Origin: Tetrahymena thermophila SB210
Taxonomy: Eukaryota; Ciliophora; Oligohymenophorea; Hymenostomatida; Tetrahymenidae
Length of the DNA stretch: 64,000 nucleotides
Assembly: GCF_000189635.1 (NCBI RefSeq)
Contig: NW_002476334.1
Span: forward strand, 124,001-188,000
Reading direction: 5' to 3'
The notes beneath the pieces are model-generated. The model was not told the origin of the DNA, did no database searches, and saw only the letters and a program-made list of their open reading frames with translations. Shown one piece after another: positions 1,666 to 51,752 of the stretch (the stretch's first letter is position 1; each line of letters begins with the position of its first letter). A program made the position numbers and the translations under genes.

Positions 1666-4600
1666 ATCGTTTCTATTACAGCTAAGGAATAAAATAACTC
1701 CTTAAAATAAAATGAAAATGGAGCGAATATCATTCTATTTATTATCAATTAATAGAAAGTCTGCATAATAAAAAACAAAAACAAATTATTTAAATATTGA
1801 ATGAGAAATATTAACTAAAAAAATTCTAAATTTTACTCTTTTTAAATAATTTAGATATTCTAATAAATAAAGCTTTTTTTTCAAGATTTAGATAATAATA
1901 AAAATTAGAATATTAATATCATTAAATTTAAATATATATATTTATATATAGCTCTTTTAAAGATTTAATAGATACTTTTTTCTTCTCAAAGGAATTTATT
2001 TTTTTATTTTCAGATGAAAAAAACCATGAAATGAATTTTTTTAAAGCAAAAGAAAATTTGCTTTTTGTTTACAAAATTATAAAATTAAGAAAATTTATAT
2101 TTGATATAAAAATAAAAATGTACTTCTCTTGTGAATATATAAATGTATTCATATTTTAAGATAACCACTCATTCTAGGGTTTTTTGATTAGTGTCTACTA
2201 CAAATTTATTCTTTTCATGTGTTACCATTTACCTTCAAAATTTTATTAATTTTTTGTCACCTTTAAATATAATAAAAGTAAATTAAAATTAGAGTATAAA
2301 AATAATTATGGGTATTAATTATTTTAACTAATAATAATTCTATTATTTTATAAAAATGTTTATATTTAGATATATTTTATTTTGCTTTATTATTTATTTG
2401 CTTATTTTATTTGATCTTGCATATGATAAAGTTTATGATGTTTACTTAAAAAAATGGCTATCTATAGAAAAATGAATTGAAAAAAATCTTTTAAATCAAA
2501 GATAATCGTATCATTTGATAAATAACTTTCTTTAATTTTATTATCATTTTTTATAAACTTACACTATATTTATTATTAAAACATTTTAAAAATATGAAAA
2601 ATTTGAAATTTTCATTCAACCTTCAATTATTTTCATTTAAATTTTATTGGATGATAAATTTCAGAGCTAAGGAAAGCTTAACTTTATTTAGTTAATTTTT
2701 TATTTTATATTAATAATAAAATTTTTTAATTCTTAAATATTTTACATAAATAATTAAATTTTAAATTATAAACTAATTACTTTATGTATTGAATTTATTC
2801 ATTTTAATTAAAACTAATTTTATAATTACTGTATAACCTTACTGATTTGGATATTGAATTTCAATATCTAAACCAAATACAAGAATGAAATAAAAAATAC
2901 TAAGATATTTCTTATCATTTTTAGGTTAATACTATTAAATAAAATAAATAAAGGTATAAGTTAAATAGAGAAAAATATTTAATAAAATCATTTAAAATAT
3001 CATATTTAATTGTATATAATGACTATTAATAATTATTTTTGAATTATGTTTATCAGTTTATGATTGACTTCAAATTTATTTTTATGATTAAATTTTCTAA
3101 TTATTTTAACACATACAAATTTATCCTCTTAAAGTGTTTTTTGTCATTTTAAAAAAATTGTTAATAGAAATAAGCAGAAGGTTAAATTATGATATATTTA
3201 ATTTTCAAATTGAATGGATATCTAATAAATTAGAGAGGATCGTTTATTTAAAATATATTAATTAATTAGTTTGTTTAATTTTTTTAGCTTAATAATTCAT
3301 TTTCTTATTTTGATGTAGAAAATTATTTTAAAATATTTTTTAAGATGGTAAAAATATATTTTAGTTTTTTTTACTTTTTGCTTTTAAAATAATCCCACCA
3401 AAATAATAATTTAATATTTAATATTTATTTGATCAAAGAATAAATCTAGAAATTATATTTTTGGCGGCTTTAAATTCTTGTTAATTAGATGTAAATAGAA
3501 ATAATTTTTGTGTAATTTAGCTTTTATTTAATTATCTTTCATTAAAAATCTTATTTACATTTTTTAGACTAGTATTTATAGTCTTTCATTTTTTTTGTTT
3601 ATTTTATTTGGCTGAAAGAAGCAAATATTCTCAAGGATAAACATGTGTTATTTTTAATTTTTGTAAAATAGACAATTACTCATCAATTACATAGTATGAT
3701 GCATATTAATAATCATACCGCTTAATTTATTTATCAAAGTCTAAAAACTACTTAAATACTAATTTTGTAGTACTTTATTTAATTCATTTGATTAGACGAT
3801 TTAATTAATAAAAACATAGATTACAGTAATTAATAGAATCTATGGCATTTTGAATTAATTTTCTAGATATATAGTTTGTCTATCTATGCAAACAAGTTTT
3901 TATATTTAACTGAATCTTATACTTTGTTTCATAATTCGTATTATAACAAACACGAGGAAGAAAAATTGCTAAAAACTATAATTTAGTAAAATATTTTTAA
4001 TCCTTTTGTTTAAATCTAGAAAAATGAAATAAATCTATTTTGTTTATTGAGTTGACTGGAAAAATGGAAAAATAAGGTTGGATAAAACAACCAATAACTT
4101 TATTGATTACTAATTAATTAATGATTAATTACGAACAAACATAAATAAAAATTAAATAATTATTGTGGTAAACATTTATTTTATAGTACATTTGCATTTT
4201 TAGTCCATTAATCTTTAAACAAAAATATTTATGGTTTTAATTTATAGTACAATCCATTTTCCAACTGCTGCATCATTTTTTTAGTAACTTACGCTGACTT
4301 CTGTATTCTTGCTAATCAATACTAAATATTTAATTTTTATTGATTGAAAAATATTTTTCTTGTTTTTTAAGCTATAATATGAAGGAAATGACATAAAATG
4401 AATTGAAAATAAATTAATACATATTTTTTTATTTTAAAAATGAGGATAAATTAAATCTAATAAAAAGTTGAAAATTTTAATTTTATATCTTTTCCAATTA
4501 AAAGTAAGTTGAATGTTTATTTTCAGCCATCAAAATGAAAATGCAAAGTTCATGGATTTTTAGAATTGATTTGATATATATTAATAATTAAATATCATAC

Positions 4601-4995
4601 ATCACTAACGTGTACTACTAATGATAAAATTCCTATCTAAATCAATCTATAATACTTCAAAATAAAAGTTTACCTTTTTTTCATTTAAAACCAGTCTTAA
4701 ACAAATGAGTCCAGTTAAAGCGACATTTCATTCGTTTTTTATTAGATCTCTAAGTAATACTATAAATTTAATTACTATTTTGTATAGTTTCTTTTAATAA
4801 CCTTAAAATACTGTTCAAAAACTCTTTTATGTATTATGAGTAAATGAATATTAATCAAATTCTTACTAGTTAAAAAATCAAACCATTCTGATGAGCGTTT
4901 ATTTTTAAATTGCATTTTCAAAGTAAGTACTTGATTATAATAAATAAATTAAAATAAAATAAAGTAAACAATAAATTAGCATAAAGTTTTTGTAA
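1666..4995. other. A/T-rich intergenic region, no gene seen
   Basis: About 3.3 kb of extremely A/T-rich sequence between the divergently oriented genes at 1-1665 (-) and 4996-9158 (+). I see no frame with coding-like composition and no RNA gene. It must contain both promoters, but no recognisable element stands out. A short palindrome at 2850-2868 is listed separately. Confidence 0.6.
2850..2868. repeat. Short perfect palindrome (9-bp arms)
   Basis: GATATTGAA and TTCAATATC are exact inverted repeats separated by one T. The flanks also pair partly (ATTTG upstream, CAAAT downstream). This is a possible small hairpin in an intergenic region. Such palindromes are common by chance in very A/T-rich DNA. 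Confidence 0.35.
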
Positions 4996-7900
4996 ATGCT
5001 TTCTGCAAATCAATCTTTTGAAAAGAATCCACAGATGGGTAACGATGACACCCATTAGTAATTTGCTAACAATGGACTAAAGCACTAACCTATACCTAAA
5101 TCAAGTCTTTCAAATATTCCTGAAAGTTTGGCTGACCTTGACTAACCTTAGTAGCCTGGAAGCGGACCTTCTACAGTATTTCTTGATGCAAATGAGAAGA
5201 AACCCCTTACTAAGAGATAAAAATATTTTATTGGGTTAGCTGTTTTACTTGCTGTTGCAATGATTGGTGGTGGTCTTGCTGCTTATTTCATTATTTCATA
5301 GTAAACCAGTGGTCCTTAAGTCCCTTCTACTTATCCTTAATATCAAAATTAAATCAAGGTAAATTAATAAATTTTTTAAGAATATGAAATGAAAATTATA
5401 TAATTATAAATTAAATAGATTGGTCAAGAATAAAATTTGGTCGAAATCATCCATGTACCTTAAAGTTAAAAGATCTACGAATATGTTTTAACCAACAATC
5501 AAGTCACTGCTTAGAGTGCTGATAAAAAATCTGAAACAAAATCAAATATTCGTCACAAATTTGGTCTTGTATGCTTGGATGTTACGGAATCATGTAAATT
5601 TATTTTTATTTATTTATTTGTTTATTAAAAAACATTTTTTAACTAATAGCTTTTGATATGCTTCTTTACTTCATCGAATCAAAACTTGTTGGAAACTTAG
5701 AAACTGAGTAATCAACTTTTAAAGGCTATCCTAGCGTAAAGGAATCTTAAAGAAGATTCTTAAAAAGCGAAGAGTAACCTACTCAAAATGAAAAATAAGA
5801 AGACCTTTAAAATGAATTTGGTTTCCTTACCTAAAAGGAAATTGATATCCTCAAATAACAAGGAATTTCTCCTGAACAATTCTACGCTTCTAGTTTACCT
5901 ATTATCAGATTTACCATGCTCAAGAATGGTGCAATATCCTATGTTCAATAGCCTCTCAGAATAAGATATGATATTCATTAAATTTACTTAAATATTCTCG
6001 AATAAATTTCTCCCATTGTCCTTAAAGATTTCTACAACGTTTCTCAAGGTAAGAGATTACTCTCTAGCTCAAGTTTAAAAAATAAATAAAGAATTTTGAA
6101 TAATGAGCTAGTTGAGCCTGCCTATGAAGCAAAAATATAAGACAACGGAATAGTTAATGCTTCAAAGCAATATGAAACTTTAAACCAAAGAAACGATAAC
6201 AAAACCCGTACTCATTCTGACTACTCATAAGTCTCAAGTATTATGAATGGAGCTCTTTCTACCAGTCATGTTTCTTCTAAGTTCTCTATAGAAGATGAGT
6301 TAGTTGATGAAAATGACAATTCACAACCTCTATTCTCTAAATTATCTATGAACTCAAATTGCGTTATCAATTTCATTAGCCAAGAAGATATTATGGACAA
6401 AACCTTCTTAAAAACTCTCATTTAAGATTAAGAAAATATGAGTGTGTTAGAGATGACTTGGGATTAAGCTGTTGCTAACTATAATGAAGTTTTTAACTAA
6501 TCTAAATAAACTTCCAGTATTGTTGATGAAGAATCTCATAATCTTAGAGTTTTGTAATAAGCCAAATCTTTTAGCTCTTCAATCACTAAGCCTATTTTTA
6601 GAAAGACTTACGCATCTATGGAATTCGGTGCTGATTTAAAATCAGAATGCTCAGATGCTGCAGTTTCAGGAGATATTTGTAACGTTGGATTATACAGCTA
6701 CTTTAATGGAGATAGCATGAAAATTCTTGAAAAAAATACTACTATCAATATTTCTAAGGTCTTAAAAATTTATCAATATATTACTAATGTTCTTAATGAT
6801 AAAGTTTTTGTTGTCTCTGACTAAATCTAAAAGAATATTGATGCCGTTTCTCTAGCTCTTGACGACATACTTAATAAGGTTGATTATACTATTAGCATTG
6901 ACTAGAATCCTGTTTTGAGCTAATACAAGCAAATAGTTTAGGGAGATTCTTTAAACATTATTGCATAAATTAAGCAAATCGAATAATTGATCTAAGTAAC
7001 TTTGAATTCAGTAAATTAACTTCTCTAAGATCCTTTGAATACTCTCACTAGTAGAACTTTTGCTTACCTCGAAGCCAAAAATCCTGCTTTGAAGTAATAA
7101 ATAATGGAAATGTAGTAATTCTATAATGATAAATATACAAAAATCAAAAATTTTGTTGATTAAGCAAAGAAAAATGGAAGCGTAAGCTAAGCTATTAAGG
7201 ATGAAGTTAAATTCCTTCTTGATCATCACACTTAAATAATAGCTGATGTTATTGAAAAGCCTGCTACTGAAGCTATGGATATTATTGAAAAAGCCATTCT
7301 TGACAATGCTGATAAAATATTCTAAAACTCTACTTTGATTGACTAATTCATCAACTAAAACATTAACTCCGTTATCTAGAATATTACAAACAATGCTAAT
7401 CTTACTAATCTTAATTTACCATTAAATAACACAGCAGGATTTAATATCACAGATCAATTAAGCGCTATCCTTTCCCAGTTAAATGGAAATGGCTTAATCA
7501 AGCAAGCTGTTTCAGATGCAGTCAAATCTGTAGCTAATAATACTTAACTCATTAACTAGCTTAAAGATGGTTTGAAGTAAACCCTTGACACTACAAAGAA
7601 TACTATTATTGCATAATTGGAATCTTTAAAAACAAATTCCACTGAAAGTGCAGAAGATTAATAAAAAATTGAAAATATCAAAGCTGAACTTAATAGCATA
7701 ATTGGCTTTGGTTCTGAAGTTTACTAAGATGTTATGATGGTAAAAAAGAACATAACAGATTTATCTGAATAAATTAAAAACATCAAGGCTTCAGATGTCA
7801 AGAGAATTTCTATCGATTTAACAGTAAATCTATTAAATTTACCTGTTGACATGGCTTTAAAAATCAAAGATGATGCCCTTAAAACTGCTGATTAATTGAA

Positions 7901-23042: not shown

Positions 23043-23113
23043 GCTGCGTTGGTCTAGTGGCAGGATTATTGCCTTCCAAGCAATCGGCTCGGGTTCGATT
23101 CCCGGACGCAGCA
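23043..23113 (+). tRNA. tRNA-Gly (UCC)
   Basis: A 71-nt cloverleaf. The acceptor arms GCTGCGT and ACGCAGC pair fully, with discriminator A at 23113. The anticodon stem ATTGC/GCAAT encloses loop CTTCCAA, anticodon TCC. The T-loop TTCGATT and the B-box GGTTCGATTCC are intact, as is the A-box-like TGGTCTAGTGG. There is no intron. A T6 run at 23114-23119 is the Pol III terminator. CCA is not encoded, as usual in eukaryotes. Confidence 0.97.
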
Positions 23114-23516
23114 TTTTTTAAAAATTGATATAAAAATATTTGATTTCAATTTAATATTTATTCAGTTCTTAGGTTTGTTGACTTTTATAATCATTCATTT
23201 TAAATTTTTATTTATTTTTTAAATATAAATCTCAATTTTATTATCAATTAAATAAAGGATCAACATTTCAAAATTAATAAATGTGTGGTATTATATAATC
23301 TTTAGAATAAGAATTATTAATTTGCCATTTGAAGAATATAATTAAATATTCTAATTATTTATAATAAAATTTTTTACTTTAGTTATATGATAAGATTATA
23401 TGCAAATTCAACTTATTTGATTGGCTTTTTTATAATATTTTTACACTTATATGTCTTAAGAAAAATTTAATAATTTTGTTTAAGCTTTTGTAAGAGAATA
23501 ACAAAAATATTATCAA
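23114..23516. other. Spacer between tRNA-Gly genes
   Basis: About 400 nt of A/T-rich DNA beginning with the Pol III terminator of the first tRNA. No other feature is seen. Confidence 0.55.
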
Positions 23517-23587
23517 GCAGCGTTGGTCTAATGGTAAGATAATTGCCTTCCAAGCAATAGACTCGGGTTCGATTCCCGGACGTTGCA
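23517..23587 (+). tRNA. tRNA-Gly (UCC), second copy
   Basis: A 71-nt cloverleaf with the same anticodon arm (ATTGC-CTTCCAA-GCAAT, anticodon TCC) and T-arm as the copy at 23043. The acceptor arms GCAGCGT and ACGTTGC pair with one G-T wobble, and the discriminator is A. A T5 run follows directly. Differences from the first copy sit mainly in the acceptor, D-loop and variable region. Confidence 0.95.
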
Positions 23588-23791
23588 TTTTTATTTGATA
23601 TTAAATTACTGTTTTATTTGTTATCCATTTTAATAAAAAATGAGTGGAACCTGAAAGCAGTTAAATTTAAATATTTTAAAATAAAAAACTGATCATTTAT
23701 TAACTTAATAAATTAATAATTATGGGCATAAATTTAACTTTTACTCATTTAATTAAGTGCTCATACAGAAAAAATCTATGATATTTAAATA

Positions 23792-23862
23792 GCTACATTA
23801 ATCTAGTGGTATGATAATTGCCTCCCACGCAATAAGCTCGGGTTCGATTCCCGAATGTAGCA
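23792..23862 (+). tRNA. tRNA-Gly (CCC)
   Basis: A 71-nt cloverleaf with perfectly paired acceptor arms GCTACAT/ATGTAGC and discriminator A. The anticodon stem ATTGC/GCAAT holds loop CTCCCAC, anticodon CCC, decoding GGG. The T-arm matches the two UCC copies. A T5 run lies slightly downstream at 23874-23878. It probably arose from the same ancestor as its neighbours, with an anticodon change. Confidence 0.95.
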
Positions 23863-33914: not shown

Positions 33915-36172
33915 ATGGCTGCCCAAAAGGATTTAAAGAAGGATAAAAAAGACATTAAGCTTCAAAATATCGAATTTGTTGGTATAGTTAGAGAAGTTCA
34001 CTCTGGTGATTCTCTCACAATCTAATCAACTAAAACTAATAACATCGCCAGATTTTTCTTGACTCACGTCAGAGCTCCTAAGGTTGGAACCAATGATACA
34101 CAAGATAAACCTTATGCTTTTGAATCTAAAGAATTCCTTCGTAAGAAACTCATAGGTCAATAAGTAGAAGTAAAATTTGAATATGAAAAAACTGTTAAAG
34201 TCGCCAAATCTTGGGAAGATGACAGTGAAGCTACTGAAAAACAAATGAACTTCTGTACTGTGTTCTACTAAGGCTAAAATATTAATGTAGGATTTTTAAA
34301 ATTATTTTTTTATATTTCCAACTAATAAAACATCAAATATATTATTAAAAACACTCTAATTCATTTAAACTCTTCTAATTACTTGTTTTAATATCATTTT
34401 TTTAAAAATTTTAGCTCTAATTAATCCAAGAAGGTTATGCTGAGTTCAATTTCGCCAGAACAGAAGAAGAAAAATCATAATATCACGATGAATTGAAGAC
34501 TGCTTCTGAAGAAGCTGCTAAGAAAAAGAAGGGTCTCCACTCTACCAAAAATATCCCTCTCCACAGATTCAATGATATTTCTCGTTTGAAAAATAAGCCT
34601 AAACTTCTTGAGCACTTCAACTCATTGAAATCGTAAATAATTTACATAATTTTTTTTACAAATCCTCTAAATTATCGTTTAATTCTAACATTAAAAATGG
34701 AATAACCTACCAATAGAAAAAATTAAAAAAAAAAGCATAATGCATAGTTAAGTTTTAGTCTTCAATTATATATTAGAACAGGTTTATAAATATTTTAACA
34801 AACTATATCAGATTCTTATAAACGTGTCACTATAGATTTAATTAAAAAAATTCCAAGATATCGTTTTTAATTAATTTTTTAAAAATTAACTGATAAGTGA
34901 AAATTTATTTAAGACTTTTTTATTTCAACTAACTAAAAAATCTAGAAGATTTTTAAAAATTTTTAAAAATAAATTATGTTGTTTTAACAAAAGAAAAAAT
35001 AAAATATTATTTTTCTTAATAATTTTTTTTTTTAACTTAGAAAAGCTAGATTAACTGGTGTTGTTGAATTGGTCATTAGTGGTGGTATTTATAAAGTTAG
35101 AGTTAATGAAGAACCATACTCCATTCTTGTTCTTTTAAGCGGTGTCAGATGCTTACCTCCTGATAGTAATATTCCCGAATACACCACCTGGTCAAGCAAA
35201 GCATTAGATTTTGCTAAAAATAATCTACTTTAGAGAGATGTTGAAATCCAATTAGAACGTATGGATAACAAGGGTAAGTTCCATGCTACTGTTTTAGTGA
35301 ATAAGTAAAATTATGCAAGCTAGCTCTTATCTTAAGGACTTTGCTTTACTTTTGGTAAGGCTAAACATACTACCGAATATGAAGCTATTGAAAAGGAAGT
35401 ATAAGCAGCCAAGAAAGGATTATTCGGTTCAAATAAAATAAATATTGAAAGTTTACGTGGTTAAAATTTTGATGTAGATTAAAAAAATGTTAAAGCTATT
35501 TCAGGTAGCATTTAAGCCAAGTTAAGCGAATTAATTAACACTGATGAATTCTATATCCAAGAAAATTCTCGTATTGCTGTTTTAGATAAGATGGAAAAGG
35601 AACTCGATGATTTTGACTTAGAAGCTTATCCTAAACTTTAATAACCTGTTTAGCCTGGTACACCTTGTGTAGCTCTTTTCAGTGGAGACAATAATTATTA
35701 TAGAGGTAAAATAGTTAAGAAGCGTAATGATAATAAATACGAAGTATTTTTCATTGATTACGGCTTCTACGATAGTGTTCATATTGATGATATGTGCAAA
35801 TTACCTGAAAAATGGGCTCCTATTCAACCATTTGCTATCAAGCTCGGATTAGCTTACTGCGTTGGTTTACACGATAAGCATCCCTTGGCAGTAGAAAGTG
35901 ATGAAACATTCAAAGAGTTAGCTTGGGGCAAAAAAATCCACTTATCTTACAAATACGAAGACAACGGCGTAAAATATGTTATTGTATAAGATGCAGCTAA
36001 TACTCCCTTGAACTAAACCATCAACTTCCAACTTCTTAAAAAGGGTTTGGTTAGATTAGATGAAGGAGTAGCCCTCCCTGAAGAACTTCAAGCTTGGTAA
36101 GAAGAATAAGATTTCGCTAAAGAAAAGAAAATCGGTCTTTGGGCTTATGATGAATAAGAAAATGATGATTGA
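33915..36172 (+). CDS. SND1: Tudor-SN family protein (staphylococcal-nuclease-like domains plus Tudor), shortened
   Basis: Exons 33915-34286, 34415-34632 and 35041-36172 give 573 aa. Residues ~20-190 form an SN-like domain ending in GLHSTKNIPLHRFNDIS, which resembles the third SN repeat of animal SND1. A second SN-like domain covers about 197-330. A Tudor domain follows at about 400-470 (YRGKIVKK...FFIDYGFYDSVHIDDM), with the aromatic residues of a dimethyl-arginine cage. The C-terminus completes a split SN fold (LLKKGLVRLDEG...KIGLWAYDEQ). Animal proteins have about 900 residues with four full SN repeats, so the first two repeats appear to be missing. The family acts in RNA metabolism and has been linked to RISC; Tetrahymena Tudor nucleases (TTN genes) have been studied in small-RNA-guided DNA elimination. 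I cannot tell which TTN this is. The second intron is long (408 nt). Confidence 0.9.
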
Positions 36173-38307
36173 AGAGATGATAATTGAAATCTGATTAGTT
36201 TTTTAGTTAATTTTAATATAATAAAAATTAACAAAATATTTATATTTAAAAAACATAAAATATAAACTATTAAAAAATAAATAACAGCAACATTTTTATA
36301 ATTACTTTATTTTTATAAAACCATAAAATAAAATAAATTAAATCTTCACAACTTAATCAATTTATTTTCTAAAAATAATTTAAAAATTCAATTTATAATA
36401 TTAGTTATTATTTTTAAAAAAATATCTTTAATAATAATATTTAATCAACTTAAAAATATTCAACCCTTACTTCTAACTTAAAAATTAAATTATAATTTTT
36501 TTTCTTATCAAACAGCAAAGTATTAAATTTGTAACGATATAAAAGTTATATTTTCAAATTTATATTTTAGTATTTATTTTGAAATTTTAGCATAAAGGTA
36601 AAACGATTAATTAATTTATTTTTCATTAATTAATACCCTCCTCTTACTTTGATAAATTTTCCAAAATTATATGGCCCTCTTTTTATATAAACTGATCAGG
36701 GCTTAAACTTTTTTGTTTAGAAAGACATTAACTACATAAAAGTTTGAATTATATTTATAAATTTATTAATTATTTAAGAGTTTCTAAGTGTAGATAATTG
36801 ATAAATTTTTATATACTTTAATTAGATTTTTAATCTAATACTGTGAAGAAAGACTATAAATTTAAATAAAAAAATATTTGTATTTTTATTCATTTAACAG
36901 ATTTAGTTTAAAAAAATATTAATTTAAATACTTTTAAATTATTTAAAATTAGCCACTGTTTAATGTGTTGTTTTAATTTAGTTAAAATGAGTAAGGTTAA
37001 AAATAGTAAATCATACTATTAATTGTAACTTAAGAAGATTAATTAAATTTGAAAATCATTCCTATCCTATCGCAATCAGTATTAATAAAAGAATTAAGTT
37101 GTTACTAAATTACAAATTAATTATAATGCGTATGTCTTGGAGTAATATTTTAAAATTCAAGTAAACTCATTTTAAGAATCTTTTTTTCACGCATAATTAG
37201 ATAAGCCAAGTATCCAAGTAAATTGTAATTAACCTACAGAAAATCTAAATTCTAAAACTGTGTAGTAAGCTATATTATATTCAAATTCTATGTCAATTAA
37301 GCCATTTTCATTTTAATACTAAGCTGTAGAACTATTAATATTAAAATATTTGGATTTTTAATTTTCTTGATTGTGTGGTTATACTTGCAAAATAATTAGA
37401 TCATATTATACATTCGTTGTAAATATTATTCTTTTATATGAGAAAAACTAGCATGTTTTTAGATATATTAATTCCTTTATATCCCTAAAAAAATCTAATT
37501 TTGTAATTTAAACAACTTACATTAATAAAAATTAAACAACAGGTGAAATTAAAAGTAAATATTTTTGCTTAGCCTATTTAAAAAATAAAACAACTTAATG
37601 AAAATAAAATCATGTGGATTTTTACTTCGAATTTATTTGATCAAGTGTGTGGTAAAATTTATAAAAATTTTCAATTAAATTTTTTTTCTATCGTGAAAGT
37701 TGCACGTTTTTAGTATGTTTTAGCATATTATTCATTTGCAAATAATGACTTAATATCTTTCAATTTAATTTTCTTTTTTCACTAAAACCTCAAACTCTCT
37801 TGTTTGATTACTTGTTAAAAAAGTATCAGAGCTTTTAGAATACGTAATCTGATGTCATTAGAGTTTATATAAGGAGTTAATATTAATAAACGAAGAAACA
37901 AAAAATGTGATATTTAAAAGCAAACTGGAAATCAAACCAAATTTTAAAATATATATGAGAGTCATCTATTTTTATCTCTTAAATTTATATCTTCTATTTA
38001 TAATTTTAAATACTAGCTTAAATATTATGATCGATTTTTATATAAAAATATATATCAAACATTTTAGTTCACCTTATTACTAATAGTTGAGTTTAATAAT
38101 AGAAATAGATTGAAATACCTCAATAATAACCATCAGACATATCTTACTCATGTAATTTATTGTGGAATTAAATACAACTTTTACTAGTATTTTTCTCAAA
38201 ATTATAATCAAAACTTTTTAAAAAGAAAAAGAAAAATTAAAAAAAAGGAAAACAACTTAATCTCTTAAAATCTTAATAGTAGAATTCTGTTGGTTTGAAA
38301 AAAACCT
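36173..38307. other. Intergenic region containing a long TGA-free frame of doubtful meaning
   Basis: About 2.1 kb upstream of the P5-ATPase. One plus-strand frame has no TGA from 36991 to 38295 (435 codons; first ATG at 37126). The product would be almost devoid of Gly and poor in Glu, Asp and Ala, and full of Ile, Asn, Lys, Phe and Leu, like translated spacer DNA. I treat it as non-coding. Confidence 0.5.
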
Positions 38308-41300
38308 ATGAACAAAAAAGATGATATCGCTTAGCAAAACACATAAGATGATCTTGGATTCAAGAAAAAATATGATAGTTCCTAAAAGATTTAACTCTTT
38401 AAAAAAGTTTAGGAGGAATGTGTCATTTCAAGAGTATTTACTGTTAAACAGACTATTTTGCAAGTCATTTTAGAGTTTACCTCATACCTCTTCTCTGCAG
38501 GTATACTCTTCCTCTTGTTTTGGTGGATAAAAGAGTGGCGATTTAAGTGCTTCTTCACTATTACGACGATAGAGCATGCCGATAGAGTTGTAGTATATGG
38601 ACCTGATGGAGACATCCAAATCTTGAAGCTCTTTTAAGTAAAGGTGAATGGAAAAATGAATAGCAATAGTAAATTGAATGGTTAATAAGATATTGAAAAT
38701 AATAACTCAAATTCATCTGAATTAATTTTAGTTAAAGCTTTCGATTATCGTTTTAACAAATATTAATATGTCAATGGAGAATTTATTCCTTACTGTGATT
38801 CTCCTTTTGACTATAAGAATAAGGAAATCATTTCTTTATTTAAAGAAGGCTTAACACCTGAGCAAATACAGTAAACTAGAGAAAAAAATGGTAGAAACAA
38901 TACTGATATTCCCGATAAAGGAGTAATTTAGCTAACATTTGAAGAATTATTTTCTCCTTTCTACTTATTTTAAGTAGGCAGTACTATCTTGTGGTTGTTT
39001 GAAGGATATCGTATTTATGCTTACATTATTATAGGTACTTCAACTATTAGTGTAATGCTGAAAATCTATGAAGAAAGACTTAATTTCTCTAGATTAAGAG
39101 AATTTAGCTATTTTAGAAGTTCATCATGTATTTTCAGAAATGGTAATAAGTAGGTTATGGATTCTTAAGAACTATGCTTTGGCGACAAAGTTATTCTTCG
39201 TGAAGGAGAAATAGCTCCTTGTGACTTAGTTGTTGTGAAAGGAAGCGCTGTTGTTAATGAAGCTATGCTTACTGGTGAAAGTATACCCATAGTTAAGACT
39301 TCTTTGAGCAATAATGATGAAGAATTTAACGAAAATAAGCAAAATGTGATTTATTGTGGAAGTACAATTCAATAAGTAACAAATAATTTAGAATGCATAG
39401 TTATTCGTATAGGCTTTGAGACATTAAAAGGTAACTTGATTCGTTCTATTATGTATCCTAAGTCACATTCTTAGATTTCTTTCAAAAACGATTCTGGTAA
39501 ATTTTTGCTAATTCTTGGGTTTGTTGCTTTGATTTCATTCTTTGTAGCACTTAAAACTTTTATTGACAAAATCGATTTAGGATTAATGGAAACTAAAGAT
39601 GTAGTTATTAGATGCTTCGATTTAGTTACTATTAGTGTTCCTCCTGCACTTCCTACTTGTTTGTCATTTGGTATTTCATTCTCTCTAAAAAGACTTCGTA
39701 AAAGACAAGTTTACTGTATAAATCCTGAAAAAATAAACATTTGTGGTATAGTAAGAACAATATGCTTTGATAAAACAGGAACGTTAACAGAAGAAAAGCT
39801 TTCTTACAAGTTTGTCTCTACATTCTTAAATGAGTAAGGATAAAACAAATTTGAAGAGCAAGTTATTCCATAGCAACTTAGCAAAAATTAAAGAATGATT
39901 ATGTCATCTTGTCATAGTTTGATGCTTTATAAGGGTAAGAATGCTGGAGATCCTCTCGATGTTGAAATGTTTGAGAATTCAGGAGCAGATTTAATTGAAG
40001 AGGATAATCATGCTTAAAAACAAATCAATGGAAATAAAGTAATTTCTGAAATTAGCTTAAGATCATTTAGTTAAAATTAAGAAACTAAAGAAGTTATTTC
40101 TGTGTTAAAAAGATTCTAGTTTGAGTCTGAAGTCGAAAGAATGTCTTCTTTGATATCGTATGAAAATCAAACATACATAGTCACAAAAGGTTCTCCAGAA
40201 AAAGTTAAAACAATTTGTCTCCCTCATACAATTCCTTAGTCCTTTGATTCCTAACTTTAGAAATACACTTAAGAAGGTTATCGTGTTATTGCTTTAAGCT
40301 ATAAGCCTATTCAAGACTCTGAGATAGATTGTGCAAAGGAAAGATTATTTTATGAACATTCATTAATTTTTACAGGGTTCCTCGTTTTTGAGAACAAGCT
40401 TAAACCTGAGACTATTCCTCACATTAAATTACTCCTTGAAAAGAAAGTCTAAATTCATATGGTAACAGGTGACAATCCCTTAACTTCCTTAAGTGTAGCT
40501 AAATAATGCGATATTCTTGATTAAACACAAAAAATAGGTGTGCTTGATGTAATTACAGAAAACGGCCAGACAAGCAGCTCTTTAGATGGTGTATCTACTC
40601 CAGTCGAGAAAATTTTAGAGAATATGGTTTCTTAAAAACCCTAACTTGTTATGACAGGAGCTTTCTTTGGCACATTTCTAAATAATATCAAGGAATAAAA
40701 CAAATAGCTATTTGCTTTACTACTTTCTCAAACAAAAGTTTATGCTCGTATGAAACCAGACTAAAAACAAAGCTTGATCAGAAACCTCTAGTAATATTAG
40801 AATCTTTCTTAAGGCTACTCTTTCATAGGTATGTGTGGAGATGGTGCAAATGACTGCTAGGCTTTAAAAGATGCTGATATGGGTATTTCATTGGGAGAAG
40901 CTGAAGCTTCTATAGCAGCTTCCTTTACAAGCAAGATTCAAAATATAAGTATTATAGAATACATCTTACGTGAAGGAAGATGCTGTTTGGCAACTTCATT
41001 TTAATGCTTCAAGTTTATGTCTGTGTACAGTATTATTTAGACATGCACAACTGCTATCCTTTATTAAAGAGGTGCTGTTCCTGGTGATTATCAATTCCTT
41101 TATTGGGATCTCTTCATCATTATACCATTAGCATTTTTGATAGGTTTAACTGATTCAGCTGAAAAACTCACTGTTAAGACACCTTCTCACCGTCTATTTT
41201 CTTACCAAAATATATTTTCAGTGATAGGTTTGGGTATAATATAATTCATATTCCTTATTATCTCAATATCCATTATAACTCCTGAAGACTGGTATATTTC

Positions 41301-41817
41301 ACCCATTGATATTAACATAAAAAGTTAATCTGATCCTTCTGTGTTATTATCCAACTCTTTTGATAATGCAGTTCTATTTTGGGTATCTAATTTCCAATAT
41401 ATCTGTTCAGTGATAGCCTTTTCAGTTGGATCATAATACAAAAAGCCTTTTTATACTAATTTCTACTTTACCTTTTTCTTATTTGCTATCATAACTCTTT
41501 CTATTTATGCTCTGTTTTCATAAGAAATGAACTTTACTGAGTTCTTTTAAATTTCTGCAATAGCTTACGATAATGATGGTAATCCTATGAGTAAAATGCC
41601 CTATTATTGGAGATACATTTTTGGAGGATTAATAATAGTGAATATGATTATTAACATATTATATGAAAAATATATAGTTAATATTCTTTGTGGCTTATTT
41701 GAGAAATTGTTCCCTTCTTTAGTCTACCATGGTACTTTTAATACCAAAGATATTCAAATATCTGACCTTAATAAAGCAAATGATGATATGGCAAAAGTTG
41801 AAATGGTTCAAATATGA
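38308..41817 (+). CDS. P5B-type ATPase (ATP13A2-like)
   Basis: A single uninterrupted reading frame of 1169 aa. P-type ATPase motifs appear in order: the actuator TGES loop (AMLTGESIP), PPALP at 445-449 in TM4, the phosphorylation site DKTGTLT with Asp488, KGSPEK in the nucleotide domain, MVTGDN, and the hinge GDGAND at 844-849. PPALP (rather than PPELP) is the signature of the P5B subfamily, whose animal member ATP13A2 exports polyamines from late endosomes and lysosomes. That substrate is an inference here. The N-terminal cytosolic part holds a hydrophobic segment at about 45-72, as in P5B proteins, and a C-terminal set of six TM helices follows the P-domain. Residues that catalyse phosphorylation and dephosphorylation are intact. 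Lack of introns over 3.5 kb contrasts with most neighbours. Confidence 0.96.
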
Positions 41818-42643: not shown

Positions 42644-45600
42644 TCAAACTAAGTGAGACCAATATTGATCAGAGTTTTCTTCTTTTGACTCCATCATCTT
42701 TTTGATGATTTTCTCTTATTCGCTCTAGAAATTGTCTTCTTCTACTTCAAAGAACGTTTTTTCTCTTAATTTTTCTTCATGGTAAATCTTTAACTCTTCA
42801 CGTAAAATACTCAAATAATTTATATTTTTGATCATTTTTTTAAGAGCTTTTTCAACGTTTTTTACAATTGAGTCTTTCCAATACTCACTTTGCTCAATGT
42901 TATGCTTAATATCTTGATTAATTTCCTAATCTTAGTTAATTTTATATATTTACTCATTTTAAGAATCAGGACTTTCTCCATTATTTTAATGATTTTCATC
43001 AAGCTCATTTTAAGTGAAAAATATATTACTTGATTTCAATTTCTTGTTTATTTAGCTAAGTTAAAAATTTGACAGATTTTTATTATAGCTTTTATGCGAA
43101 ACTAAAAGTTTATCTCTCATAGGGCCTATACCCTTGATAGATTTGTACTGAATAAACTACTAATAAGGCTTTTTAAGGAACTATTCAAAATTCTCTCTCT
43201 TCTTAGCTTCTATTCTGATATCTTAATTAGCCTTATTTAATATTAATTTTATTAATAATTTTTTTAACTATCCAAATTTTTTAATGATTGATTACCTTCA
43301 CTTGAGTATCCATGAGACATCCTTTATCAGATTTTATATCAAATTTAGGTGTTTTTCTCAATGGTATTTATGTTTTTGATTTAGTTTAAAGTTTAAATAG
43401 CTATTCTTGCTGATTTTTTTTTTGTTAATCATTCTAATTAATTTGATGATCTAAAAGTAAGTCTTTGTTTTCTTCTGGAATGAGTTAGTTTAAATCATTT
43501 TCTTCATCTGAAGAAATTATGTATAAACTTCCATCTATTTATTGATCTTCCAATTTTTTTCTGTTTTTTTTAATTTCACGTGCTGCTATAATTTCATATC
43601 TTCTCTATTTATTTATTGGTTTAATTCAAAATAAAGTTAATTTTAAAAATTATTTCTTAAATTTAAAGAAAATTACTTTTTGCAGTGCCTTTAAATTCTC
43701 AATCTGCATTTTTCTCAGTGAACTTGTTTCTTCTTCTCTGATATTCATAGCCATTCTATTATGATAATAAGCTGATTTTCTAGCATCTCCTAAATAAAAG
43801 TAAATTTTTCCAAGCATTTCATATGCACCGAGCTCATTGTTGGCGCTATCACAAGTCCAACTTAAGTGAAGATATTTGGCTGCATAGCCGAATGCAATCT
43901 TTAATTAATTTAAAAACTAAAAAATCTAAAAAATTAAAAATTATTTACTTCGAATTTTTAAATAGTGCAATAGCATTGAGCCAGGGATCTGTAGGACTTC
44001 ATAAGATACTCGTTTTACATATTTAAAAATGACTATCTTTTAACTACCTTGAGAATAGGAATAGCTAATAATGGAGAGCTAATTTCAATAAATATTTTGG
44101 CAATTTAAAGTAGAATAAAAAGTTATAAACTAGGATGCTGCTTATTTAATTCGATAGATTTGCTGTGTATCCTTAAAAGAGTCTCTAGAGGTGCTCTACT
44201 TCTTTTAAATACTAAGCATTTATTTGCTAAGACCAATGTTTTCTCACATATTTCTTAATTCACTTTATAATGATTTAAAATAGGTTCTGGATCTTGTTTA
44301 TTAATAAAAGCTTTTTTTAAACGTTCAATTTCAGTTTAAAAATTGTTAAACATTTCTTAGCCAAATCTTATTTTTTTTTACTCTCTCTCTTAAAGTCTTA
44401 ATTACTTTTAAAATTAATAATCTGTAGCAGCTAAACACATTTACTTACTTATACTCACAGATGTCTGATTATTAAAATTATTTGTTTTATTTGGACTAAA
44501 GTTGTTGTTTTATAGTGGACTATTGTTCCTTGAATGAGAAGGCTTGTCACTTTACATAATATTATTCTACGAATTGCTACTATTAAGAGCCTTTGAGCTT
44601 TTAAACTTGCTATTATTTTTTGGAGCTGATACTGCTGTATTAAAAAAATTATTTAATGCACTTGGCTACTTAAAAGTATTACATGTTGAATTCATATTCG
44701 AGTTAGCATTCTTATTATTTCTTAAATTATCTGAACTTTATTTATTCCTTTAAAAAAGATTAATTTCATTTTTAGCTTTATTTTTGCTTTCTGCATCAGC
44801 TGCTGCAGTAATATTATTGCTACTTTGTATTTGTTATTTTAAAAGTAAATTTTTTTCTATGCTCTTTCTTTTGAGCATTGGCGAAGACTACACATTACCT
44901 ATGATAGAGTAATTATTGAAACCTTCATCGGTTTGAAGATTTTAAGTTGAATATTCAGTTTCATATTGTTTTTAGATATCTTCTAGACTTGATCTTTCCT
45001 TAGATAATCTAGTTACTGGAAAATTGGTAGCAATTAATTTTTTTTGATTGCCACTGTTGTATCTTAATAAAACGCTCTTTTTTTTGTTTTATTATTCCTC
45101 CTGAGCGTTTGTTTTAGTCAAAGAAAATTTATCTAAAGAGGAATTATCTTTTTTATTATCAAGCTACATAGAATTTTAAGTTTGAAATTTCTTTGTAGAG
45201 TTTTATTACTGAGCAGGACTTTAAAAAAGTTCAGACTAATCAGTTAGCAATCTTTCATTATTTATTTTAGATTACTATTTTAGCAGCGAGATATTATTAG
45301 CTGATAAATTATTTCTTTAATTCATATAAACTCCTTTAAGAAAAGTGTTACTGCTAGAAAAATAGTGTGAATTTTATATATCGCTTTGCTCTGTAAGGCA
45401 TTATTTCTAGATCTAACTCTTTTAAATGGCATTTATCTACTTTAAGGGAATATGATTTCCTTTCTTAATCTAAAAAAAGTGTTAAGTTGTTTTCTAAATA
45501 TTTCCTGGACCTCCGCCCATTTCTTTTATTTCAAGATGCTCATTGTAAATCTAAAGTTCAGACTATTAAGCTTGCTATTTTTATAACTCTATTTAAGAAC

Positions 45601-45949
45601 TTAAATATTTAGAAGCTTAATGGCGATAAGTGTTTGCATTTTAGACTTTATTTTATGAAGGATAAGATCCTCTAGGTGAAAAGAATTAAATTTCCCCATT
45701 ATTAGTTATACTAAGCCTAAGTTAGTTACTTCTATTACTAAGCCTATGACCTAAATGATTATTATTTTACTGATATACCTTAGATGGACTTGTTGGTAAT
45801 GTATTCTATGTCAAATATTTTAAAGAAGGAGAAGTTTGTATTTAACTAAAACTTTAAATCTGATTATTCACATCTCTATGATTATTATTATTACTTTCAT
45901 ATTTATCTATTTAATTAGATGATAAACTAATGTTCTTATTTATATTCAT
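42644..45949 (-). CDS. Large low-complexity protein with TPR-like core
   Basis: Minus-strand exons 45949-43949, 43898-43677, 43604-43296 and 43231-42644 give 1039 aa. Introns are 50, 72 and 64 nt, all phase 0. Residues 1 to ~480 are rich in Asn, Ser and Gln with no fold apparent. From about residue 520 the sequence becomes helical. The stretch around 640-730 has paired helices resembling tetratricopeptide repeats, notably ELGAYEMLGKIYFYLGDARK followed by SAYYHNRMAMNIREE, and earlier LAQCYCTIQKFEIAFGYAAK. TPR units serve as protein-binding scaffolds. A charged, coiled-coil-prone tail follows, ending with long Glu/Lys helices. Such proteins in ciliates are often cytoskeletal or signalling scaffolds, but I see nothing that assigns a pathway. 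The start ATG at 45947 is the first in a frame that stays open for 667 codons. Confidence 0.85.
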
Positions 45950-46984
45950 TTTTAACTTAAATGTATTTTATGTTTGTTTATAAGAAATACTTAAATTAAT
46001 TTAATAAATCTAATCACTTTTTAATCTTTAAGATATTAAAAAAATTGGTGTTTTTACATACACTTAATTTATTAATATGCGAGTAAACAAAATTTATATT
46101 ATATCTTTAATAAATCCATTATAATTCAATTTGTAATTAATTAATTAATAAATCAATTAATTAAGTCAGTATTCAAACAAAATTTCATTTTTGATTTCAG
46201 TCTCTACCTACCTATTTACTTACCTACATGCATTATACTTAATTTTATTAAATACGTTAAGATTCATTTAATAATATAAATGATTATGACAAATTCTTCT
46301 TATTAAAAATGCATTTATATACTTTGTTATTTTATCATAAATTGAATGGCTGAAAATTCAAATTTAATTATTAAATGAATTAAAATAAAGAAAAATATTT
46401 GCAAATTTCCATTTATTAAAAAAGATTCCTCCTCTAATTGAAGTATAAATATCGGGACAAATGCATCTTATGATTTAATTTACATTTAAATAAAAAATAC
46501 TTTGTTGGAATTATAATAAAATTAATTTTGCAAATAAATTGTTTAATAAGTTTTATCTAACTAAGCTTATAATAAATTTTATGATTTCATAAAAAGACTC
46601 ATAAAAAAATACTTGAAAAGAAGAACAGTAAAAAAATATGAAAAATATACTGGATGTAAAGTATTTGCTTAAATATTACTAGATTTATTATTTTTATTTT
46701 ATTTTATATTATATTGATATTGCTGTAGTGAGTAAATAAAAAAGTGAATGAGTGAACTAGCTAGTATCAAAGGAAATCTAATTTTAAAAACAGCTTTTAA
46801 GTACTACGAAATTGTTATGAAATAGAACTAACACTTTTTTATTATAAATTAATCTAATTGATTGGAAAAGCATTCATTCTCTATTATTTGATCTATAATA
46901 AAATAATCGAAAAGTAATAAATAAGCAGCAAGCAAGCAAGCAACAAATTGATTTTAAAAATAGATTTAATAGCGATTTTTATAC
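45950..46984. other. Intergenic region between divergent genes
   Basis: About 1 kb of A/T-rich DNA. It carries small TTAATTAAT-type and ACCTACCT tracts and a CAAG repeat (46924-46946) close to the start of the next gene. No coding frame is seen. Confidence 0.55.
46924..46946. repeat. Short (CAAG)n tract
   Basis: About five CAAG/CAGC units, 39 nt upstream of the ATG at 46985, so it probably lies in the 5' UTR or promoter of that gene. Low complexity, likely length-variable. Confidence 0.8.
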
Positions 46985-49128: not shown

Positions 49129-51752
49129 TCATATTTATTGGTTTTGTTTTTTAAATTTGAATTACATTTCTTCATCTTCATCATCAGATTCTATATCCTA
49201 GCTTTTTAAGCGCTGTTCCTTTATTTAATCAACGTCTTTGAATGAAAGCTTGTATTCCTGCTCGTCAAAAATAAAATCTTCATCATCATCGAGAGACTCG
49301 TTGTTTATTCTCTTCAAATTTGCAAGAATAACGCCAAATTCAGGACGTTCATTAGGGTTTAAAAGCCAACAATAACGAATTATTGTTGCCACTTCTTTTG
49401 GTATGGGGCCAACTTCTGGAATTTTAGGTCTTGAATTATCTAAGATTATTGTCTTTTTAAGATCTTCTAAGCTAAGGTTGCTAAAAGCTTCTCTTTCCAT
49501 AAATAATTCCCATAAAATGAAAGCAAAACTGTAAATGTCTGATTTAGTTTTCGGATTTTATACAATCAAAGATTTTTCTTGAAGATGCTCTGGAGCAGTA
49601 AAGTGAGTTTTATTTTAGTATCCAAATCTGTAGCTTATCAATTTCTTAAGACTAGTGAGACCAATATCAGATATCTTAACTTCATAATTTGTGTCAAATA
49701 AAATGTTAGAGCTACTTAAATGTCCATGAATGATACCAATTTTATGAAGTTTAGCCATTGTTTTAGCAATTGAAATAGCAATTTTCATTTTAGTTTCATA
49801 AGAAAATTTAAAATCAAAAGAGTCAACACTCGTTGAATTGATATTCAATCTCTTACCATATAAATTATTATTTTAGTCATTTTTATTTAGGCTTTTATTA
49901 TCTGATGCAATTGGAAATGATGAAGTTCCCGATGACCTTGAAGATTCTAAAACGTTATGGTGCTTTTAAATCAGCTCAGCAAGAGAACCAAGCTCATAGT
50001 ATTTTGAAACTAAACACACTTGGTTGTTATCTATTGCCAATTTGCTAATTTTTGATATGTTCTTAATATGGTAGCGTTTTAGTTTATTGATATCTTGATT
50101 AACTTCTTGCAATATATACGAAGAAAGTGTATCTATTGGTAAAATACGGAAAGCAAGCACATCATATTCATCATCTACTACCCTATCTCCAGAAGCATTG
50201 CTATCTCTGAAGCTGTCTTTAAGCTAGCTCTCTCTTGTTTTCTTTTTTTTTTCGAATAATACTTTTTAAATAAAGCCAAACCCTCTTTTTTTTTCCTTCT
50301 TTTTCAGCTATTTGATAAATTAAGTTTCTTTGTTTATTTTAATAATGTTATTATCTTAAGTATCTGAAATAACACTATTTTATTCATTTATATTATCTTT
50401 ATTATCCGTTGAATTATTGAGAGGATCATTAACTGGATTATCATTTTCATCAACCAGTAGAACGCTTTCTTAAGAATTATTTGGACTTTTGATAAAAATT
50501 TTGACTGATTCTTGTAACAGACTATATAGAATAGGAACTACTTCCGCCACAATATAATTAGCAGGTAGAATAAAATAACTGATAACATTCCAGAATATCC
50601 CCTGATTTGGATTTTTACCTACAATTAGATTTTATATTTATTGTGATTCTACTACCATCAAAATATCAAGAGATGCTTAAAAACATCTGCCAAACAGCTA
50701 TTTTATAATTATGAATATTTATAATGCAAGTTTTTTCAAAGCTTTAAAATGAAATTTTAATCAAAATAATTAAATAATTTTTAGTTAAAATCAATTGACC
50801 AAGTATTTTCTTATTTATATTCAATTTAGGTTAATTTATTTATTTTCAGTCTATCTTTATGAATTATCGAGAGTTTGTTTTAAGTAAGTAAAAAATCAAT
50901 TACACTTGAGCTTTACATCAAAGCATTAAAATGTTTAAAATGCCAAATATATAAAATAATAAATAAATTGTTAACTAAAATTACCCAAAAATATCCCATT
51001 CTTTCTAAATGCTTCATTTCTTTTTCTAGTGCACTGCTTTTATATGGGGCCCCGCTGAATTTAAATTTGAGGATGAATATACCTATGATATAGTAGACTA
51101 TACATAGAATATCACTCACACTTATGCATGAGATGTAAAACTACTAATTCAGATTTTATAAATCTAAATTGTATAAGCAAGTGATTAAAAGGTGAACCAA
51201 GCTATATAACACAGTTATTAATGTATATATATTTAGTCCCTTATTTGAAGCAGCAGGGTTCTTTCTATCTTCAAGAATATTTCCAACTCTGACATGAGAT
51301 TTATACGAGTAAATGATAATGTACCAAAATAGACTAAAATACATCATATCAAAAACAGCGTCTGAAATATAAAGTCCATTATACAAAAGCTTTTAAATAT
51401 TATTATCTTGTTGAGTATTATTGGTCTCTTCAGTAGTGTAATCATAATTGTAAGATACTATAATTAAAAGTACTGATGATATTACTCTAAACGCGCACAA
51501 AACAAATCCTTAAAAGTAAAAAATCTTTGATACTATTATGGTTGTAGATCTATTATAGAGTGTTTTCCCTCTATAGAGTATTAGGATAAGTATTATTAAG
51601 TATCCAAGGGCTAGTATCATGAATATCATTATGAACACATAGTTGGTAGATGTAGTAGTTTTATCATTATTATTTATTTCGATATCATCTAAGTTTGCAT
51701 AATTAATTATTTGTGATACCAAATGCCTATTAAGCTATAAATATGTTTTCAT
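49129..51752 (-). CDS. Seven-transmembrane protein fused to a TKL-like pseudokinase
   Basis: Minus-strand exons 51752-50904 and 50697-49129 with a 206-nt intron give 805 aa. Hydrophobic segments lie at about 38-60, 78-100, 132-150, 175-195, 206-229, 253-273 and 316-345, i.e. seven helices. Their style (for example SLFWYIIIYSYK) recalls THH1/TOM1/GPR137-type 7TM proteins, but this is weak. After a charged linker a protein-kinase fold spans about 455-745. Arg467 (VLAFRIL) replaces the ATP-anchoring Lys, the glycine loop is not evident, and HRD is HGH (607-609), so the catalytic Asp is lost. Asn614 and DIG (627-629), APE (TAPEH), SDIYSFAFILWELF and the RPEF ending remain. Catalysis is therefore unlikely. 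The tail is acidic (DDDEDFIFDE, ESDDEDEEM). It is probably a membrane receptor signalling through a scaffold-type pseudokinase. Confidence 0.88.

Follow-up and report, generated by a model that had tools for sequence, protein, structure and literature searches.

The locus examined here raises the question of whether a single gene of Tetrahymena thermophila joins a seven-helix (7TM) membrane region to a kinase-like domain that has lost its catalytic residues, and what such a protein might do. The window, which is the whole 64-kb stretch of DNA that was analysed, corresponds to C200:124001-188000, and the genome searches covered 445 contigs with a total of 101,022,631 bases. In keeping with the species, a telomerase gene in this genome (L070) has an open frame with two stretches, about 100 and about 130 residues long, identical to the T. 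thermophila telomerase chain 6d6v_A of the PDB; the remainder of that frame extends into predicted introns. The gene in question is located on the minus strand at 49129-51752. Its two exons, translated with genetic code 6, give seven hydrophobic segments and, C-terminal to them, a kinase-like domain. As expected for this ciliate, in-frame TAA and TAG codons stand for Gln, and the 805-aa model of an earlier, sequence-only reading contains 19 of the former and 6 of the latter. Elsewhere in the window, a P5-type ATPase is encoded by an open frame of 1172 aa (38299-41817, plus strand), whose best solved match is polyamine-transporting ATPase 13A2 at 4.4e-142. Another open frame (34901-36169, plus strand), in which Pfam identifies a staphylococcal-nuclease and a Tudor domain, resembles a Tudor-SN protein. 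The window also contains three consecutive tRNA-Gly genes with anticodons tcc, tcc and ccc (23043-23862, plus strand) and, read in code 6, an open frame of 806 aa to which Pfam assigns nothing at E up to 0.001 (43745-46165, minus strand).

Exon 2 of the gene is a single open frame (50697-49129) of 522 aa and a stop, in which TM7 and the kinase domain are encoded together, as the sequence-only reading had stated. Pfam assigns exon 2 to PF07714 at 9.1e-34 and to PF00069 at 1.1e-20, both of them kinase families. Together with seven predicted segments at GES of at least 0.6, these matches bear out the claim of that reading that a seven-TM region and a kinase-like domain lie in one protein. Using exon 2 as the query of a genome search, we found that the next match after the gene itself was C398:522431-522991 (6.0e-29, 42% identity), with the following match at 2.2e-11. 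The reverse search with the kinase domain of this paralog returned the window gene at 4.4e-38, versus 8.8e-7 for the next kinase listed. The kinase domain of the paralog matches PF07714 at 8.9e-30, and the order of its parts is identical, with seven helices preceding a TKL-like kinase domain. BLASTP aligned the two proteins at 6e-51, with 26% identity over 658 columns, a comparison made with the 805-aa model and with a paralog that still included its 57-nt third intron.

For the choice of intron, we listed the GT-AG introns after whose removal the reading frame continues to the stop, with donors within 51150-50740 and acceptors within 50960-50560, and scored the TM region resulting from each of the 47 candidates against the paralog. 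The top intron, 50984-50698, reached a score of 218, followed by 50975-50698 with 208. The intron 50903-50698, on which the 805-aa product had been based, ranked 13 of 47 with a score of 188 and was set aside. With the intron 50984-50698, the alignment to the paralog is gapless from the common FSG(A/T)PY to the Arg of TM6. The GC content of the disputed 81 nt (50904-50984) is 18.5%, that of 50698-50903 is 16.5%, and that of exon 1 is 27.7%. The alignment to the paralog favours the intron 50984-50698, and with it a predicted protein of 778 aa, over the 805-aa model. Because this model is shorter, the key residues of the kinase domain are renumbered here as Arg440, His582 and Asp600 (Table 1).

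Table 1. Predicted features of the window gene and its paralog. Positions refer to the window, except for the paralog exons, which are numbered within locus L018.
Feature	Position	Strand	Content or basis
Exon 1, corrected	50985..51752	minus	Met1-Trp256, TM1-TM5 and start of TM6; open frame, paralog alignment
Intron, 287 nt	50698..50984	minus	GTAATTTT...TATAAAATAG; best alignment to paralog
Exon 2	49129..50697	minus	Remainder of TM6, TM7, linker, pseudokinase domain, acidic tail, TGA stop
TM1 core, aa 41-59	51576..51632	minus	Hydropathy
TM2 core, aa 82-100	51453..51509	minus	Hydropathy
TM3 core, aa 129-147	51312..51368	minus	Hydropathy
TM4 core, aa 175-193	51174..51230	minus	Hydropathy
TM5 core, aa 210-228	51069..51125	minus	Followed by KFSG(A/T)PY loop, common to paralog
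TM6 core, aa 254-272	50650..50993	minus	Interrupted by intron 50984-50698; weakest of the seven
TM7 core, aa 294-312	50530..50586	minus	E(V/I)(V/I)P motif common to paralog; in kinase-domain exon
TKL-like kinase domain	49318..50109	minus	PF07714 match, profile positions 46-257
Arg440 codon, VAIK-Lys position	50146..50148	minus	MAFFT alignment column; codon placed by hand
His582 codon, HRD-Asp position, in HGHLSSSN	49720..49722	minus	MAFFT and RIPK1 profile alignment; codon placed by hand
Asp600 codon of DIG (DFG motif), kept	49666..49668	minus	MAFFT alignment column; codon placed by hand
Paralog, predicted exons (L018)	3785-4178, 4246-4861, 5101-5576, 5634 onward	plus	636 aa

Homology between the two genes extends to both of their halves. 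The TM parts alone gave 3e-9 in a two-sequence BLASTP search. In 2000 shuffles, made within the individual TM and loop segments so that the composition of each was preserved, the TM-region score had a mean of 64.6 (s.d. 11.8) and a maximum of 125, and none of the shuffles reached the 218 of the corrected model. This score comes from an intron that was picked from the 47 candidates by the same score; the 188 of the 805-aa model also beats every shuffle. The BLASTP and shuffle scores argue that the TM and kinase halves are homologous and are arranged in the same order at two loci. Identity between the paralogs is 42% in the C-lobe match and 35% over the entire kinase region, and 28% in the TM region. 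The predicted intron positions differ between the two genes, which argues that the two gene models are not copies of one error, and the presence of a paralog with the same architecture and substitutions makes a model error less likely. Homologs with separate TM and kinase genes had been named beforehand as a finding that would count against the fusion; the paralog instead has both parts fused and carries the same substitutions. Judged from the two predicted proteins, the fusion of the 7TM region and the kinase domain is real and common to two divergent genes.

Transmembrane segments were assigned from hydropathy, with boundaries set by hand. Seven segments were found at GES of at least 0.6 in both the window protein and the paralog, and in the window protein TM6 scores lowest, at 0.63 GES. 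The KD scale at 1.0 adds an eighth weak segment in the window protein (aa 434-452, 1.03), located around Arg440 of the kinase domain. Inner loops 1, 3 and 5 contain 3, 5 and 4 Lys and Arg residues in the window protein and 5, 5 and 4 in the paralog, while the outer loops contain 3, 1, 0 and 1, and 0, 0, 1 and 1, respectively. These loop charges favour a predicted topology in which the N-terminus is outside and the kinase domain is cytosolic. The first 40 residues past TM7 are net acidic in the two paralogs (Lys plus Arg 3 and 4 versus Asp plus Glu 8 and 8), and therefore do not help the inside assignment at that point.

The TM region gave only Pfam matches far below their cut-offs, such as DUF3377 (E 0.22, window protein) and SRTM1 (E 1.7), and no solved structure matched the TM profile up to E 10. 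Membership in the THH1/TOM1 family, for which an HMM check had been suggested, received no HMM support: PF06454 was unmatched in both proteins and in the genome search, whose controls likewise found nothing. The Pfam negative is a weak one. In the same genome, two multi-TM frames upstream of PIPK-domain matches (L071:770-2098 and L074:191-1753) were also not recognised by Pfam as a 7TM family at E up to 0.1, so that the lack of a Pfam match carries little weight for ciliate 7TM domains, including THH1/TOM1. These frames, with eight and seven TM segments, respectively, lie in two of five PIPK-upstream stretches, and each is presumed to be part of the gene that encodes the downstream PIPK domain. 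When the TM domains of both paralogs were compared with the stretches upstream of these 5 of 25 PIPK matches, the best BLASTP E value was 0.92, and a derivation of the 7TM domain from the Tetrahymena 7TM-PIPKs is unsupported at this level of similarity. Because the 7TM domain matches no family, the label "receptor" is drawn from the predicted topology and from analogy.

In exon 2, Pfam recognised kinase-type families only, with no cyclase domain, PIPK or DEP domain, and a search of NCBIfam also gave kinase-type matches only, all below their cut-offs. Within the best 60 of 144 and of 1299 matches, the closer solved sequences include RIPK1, CTR1, MLKL, the kinase-homology domains of receptor guanylyl cyclases (GC-A, GC-C) and, when a profile was used, B-Raf, with EGFR also high. 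On the basis of the Pfam match and these nearest solved sequences, the domain is taken as TKL-like. Receptor guanylyl cyclases have a single TM segment and, after the kinase-homology domain, a cyclase domain, which was not found in the window protein; their inactive kinase fold, like that of MLKL, is used allosterically.

To place the catalytic residues, the two paralogs were aligned using MAFFT with six canonical kinases from the genome searched, each with its VAIK in the same frame. In the HRD-Asp column, His is present in both paralogs and Asp in all six other kinases, and a profile alignment to RIPK1 places His582 opposite the Asp of the RIPK1 HKD motif. In the VAIK-Lys column, which lies in a weak N-lobe alignment, both paralogs have Arg and the six other kinases have Lys; Arg440 is less certain than His582 for this reason, yet both paralogs agree, and the PF00069 match of the paralog starts at profile position 27, three residues ahead of this Arg. 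The DFG Asp is found in all eight aligned sequences, with the motif reading DIG and DLG in the two paralogs. The catalytic-loop Asn of HGHLxSxN is retained in both, the activation segment is conserved between them (LKK..Y.NK..FT.PE.L), and both APE and the SD of helix F can be made out in the alignment. At the poorly aligned N-lobe, no GxGxxG was seen at normal spacing, leaving the glycine-rich loop unrecognisable. The alignments show that the predicted proteins of both paralogs have lost the VAIK Lys and the HRD Asp and have retained the DFG Asp. The sequence-only reading was right about the substitutions and about the remaining DIG, APE and helix-F motifs, although its numbers Arg467 and His609 are probably incorrect and correspond to Arg440 and His582. 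Its "complete kinase-like fold" says more than the sequence shows, given the unrecognisable glycine loop and a PF07714 match that begins only at profile position 46.

Across the genome, we scanned 25 loci for the catalytic motifs, comprising the two paralogs, two repeats of other loci, L068 and 20 distinct kinase matches. A total of 26 distinct other kinase places were listed, and those at C306, C184, C336, C91, C341:93642 and C272 were left out of the scan; spurious rows (L007; L016 on the plus strand; the second L059 row) were dropped. The catalytic-loop Asp was found in 18 of the 20 other kinase matches, and the remaining two (L007 and L017) were unreadable. Each of the 18 kinases read has at most two TM segments at GES of at least 1.2 in its motif-holding open frame. 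The genome-wide list of PF07714 matches contains 135 entries. Clusters within this list at C255:150165-176139 (four matches), C134:447182-456486 (three) and C214:955352-974389 (three), spanning about 26, 9 and 19 kb, suggest local kinase duplications.

Genome searches with the kinase domains of both paralogs revealed no third close relative. The TM query of the window gene returned its own gene only, at E up to 10, and that of the paralog returned, besides its own gene, the window gene alone (0.0018). Since the window query misses the paralog, the TM similarity is close to the lowest that a genome-wide search with one sequence can pick up. The genome search runs exon by exon and scores the best candidates only, so intron-split genes may be missed. 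The DNA pattern HG(H/N)(L/F)...NI occurred at three genomic places, namely the two paralogs and L068, which showed no DFG-like motif. As the reversed control occurred at two, the pattern alone proves nothing; it revealed no uninterrupted third copy of the motif. The broader pattern HGH(L/F) was uninformative, with 82 and 93 matches versus 73 and 102 in the control.

The statement that 7TM sensors normally use separate kinases holds only in part, as it omits known 7TM-kinase fusions (PMC1420674, PMC5784254, PMC12716839). In Dictyostelium, the TKL 7TMK1 and 7TMK2 each combine a kinase domain and seven TM segments in one protein. 7TMK1 thereby resembles the window gene in its architecture; unlike the window protein, it appears in a list of possible tyrosine kinases and, in the accessible text, is not called inactive (PMC1420674). 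Phytophthora infestans has 17 GPCR-TKLs in which an N-terminal 7TM region precedes a C-terminal TKL domain, as in the window protein, and two similar proteins are described for Dictyostelium (PMC5784254). A DEP domain, which the window protein lacks, is present in 8 of the 17, and this 2018 paper states that evidence for GPCR-TKLs was lacking beyond oomycetes and amoebozoans (PMC5784254). The GPCR-TKL/K proteins of acanthoecid choanoflagellates and the GPCR-TK proteins of choanoflagellates and sponges share the 7TM region and C-terminal kinase domain with the window protein, and the word "pseudokinase" is absent from the main text describing them (PMC12716839). According to the same source, 7TM-kinase fusions originated repeatedly and independently, and none has been functionally characterised to its authors' knowledge. 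Tetrahymena type IV PIPKs, such as TtPIPK2a, combine 7TM and a cytosolic kinase in the same genus, and presumed inactive lipid kinases are also reported (PMC3823935). Their domain is a lipid kinase, whereas the window protein has no PIPK match.

Inactive kinases of oomycetes come closer in another respect. In P. infestans, 32 kinases are predicted inactive, 19 of them TKL; the majority of the inactive TKLs have TM domains, and for 25 of the 32 the P. ramorum ortholog is likewise predicted inactive (PMC3019232). As a precedent for conserved TKL pseudokinases in membranes, these inactive TKLs, some of which may be 7TM proteins, come nearest, and they count against novelty. For ciliates, seed BLAST and domain screens yielded 492 GPCRs, and PIPK is the only accessory domain given as an example (PMC9960496). 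As described in the accessible text, this screen may have missed the window gene, which has no Pfam 7TM match. A study of ciliate kinomes reports 38 likely pseudokinases in Ichthyophthirius (PMC3341644). Within the accessible texts of the literature searched, no 7TM-pseudokinase is described for ciliates; supplementary tables and subscription papers were outside this scope, and kinome tables may list the gene uncommented. In the same texts, ciliates are not among the lineages reported to have 7TM-kinase fusions, and none of the fusions is called a pseudokinase.

We consider it fairly probable that the two genes constitute a T. thermophila family of seven-TM proteins with the N-terminus outside and a cytosolic TKL-like pseudokinase with a scaffold or allosteric output. 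The 7TM part would sense a signal outside, and in response the pseudokinase would change in conformation, exposure or pairing. The pseudokinase would then recruit or allosterically switch a partner, either an active kinase or another effector. We further speculate that the partner surface may be the conserved activation segment. The paralogs could function independently of each other or together as a pair. Recruitment or allosteric switching of partners is known for the kinase-homology domains of receptor guanylyl cyclases and for receptor pseudokinases such as HER3. With two catalytic residues gone in both members, their function is unlikely to need ordinary phosphotransfer, and the better conservation of the kinase region than of the TM region agrees with a sensor that has diverged and an intracellular partner that has been conserved. 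Only tentatively do we extend this to a ciliate receptor class in which the seven-TM sensor would signal solely via a built-in, permanently inactive pseudokinase, independently of G proteins, with the two paralogs pairing or competing on one partner.

Several alternatives have to be weighed against the pseudokinase family. It is extremely improbable that a 7TM gene and a kinase gene lying head to tail were mistaken for one protein. The TM and kinase exons of the paralog are joined only across a predicted 239-nt intron, but the window gene encodes TM7 and the kinase domain in a single open frame of 522 codons, and the same order is found at both loci. It is improbable that the kinase domain, with Arg and His in place of Lys and Asp, retains catalytic activity through some unusual mechanism. 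Some kinases without canonical residues stay active, and the retained DFG Asp and catalytic-loop Asn as well as the conserved activation segment would suit such an enzyme; however, both paralogs have lost the two catalytic residues together, and the glycine loop cannot be recognised.

Two further readings concern the membrane part. The E(V/I)(V/I)P motif of TM7 may resemble TM7 of TOM1/GPR137, which would be consistent with a GPR137/TOM1-like endomembrane 7TM protein that carries a pseudokinase scaffold on an internal membrane instead of acting as a receptor at the cell surface. A lysosomal location is given for GPR137 (PMC12716839). We give this reading a low probability, as PF06454 is unmatched in the proteins, a weak negative, and in a genome search with equally empty controls. 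The protein could instead be an ordinary G-protein-coupled or other 7TM receptor with an output via G proteins or arrestin-like proteins and a kinase domain that is a mere passenger. Such an output has been proposed in a model for GPCR-bigrams with inactive catalytic domains (PMC6033456, Fig 2E). In Tetrahymena, in which knockouts are established, a GPCR affecting G-protein activity and chemoattraction has been reported (PMC3226668). Nevertheless, we regard this as unlikely, because it would be odd for a passenger to be conserved at least as well (42% in the C-lobe, 35% overall) as the TM region (28%).

If the more tentative reading, a receptor class that signals solely via its pseudokinase, is correct, the two T. 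thermophila genes would form the first 7TM-pseudokinase receptor family to be described, as far as the literature searched shows. They would add ciliates to the lineages with 7TM-kinase architecture and would allow a direct test of whether a 7TM protein signals through a fused non-catalytic kinase fold.
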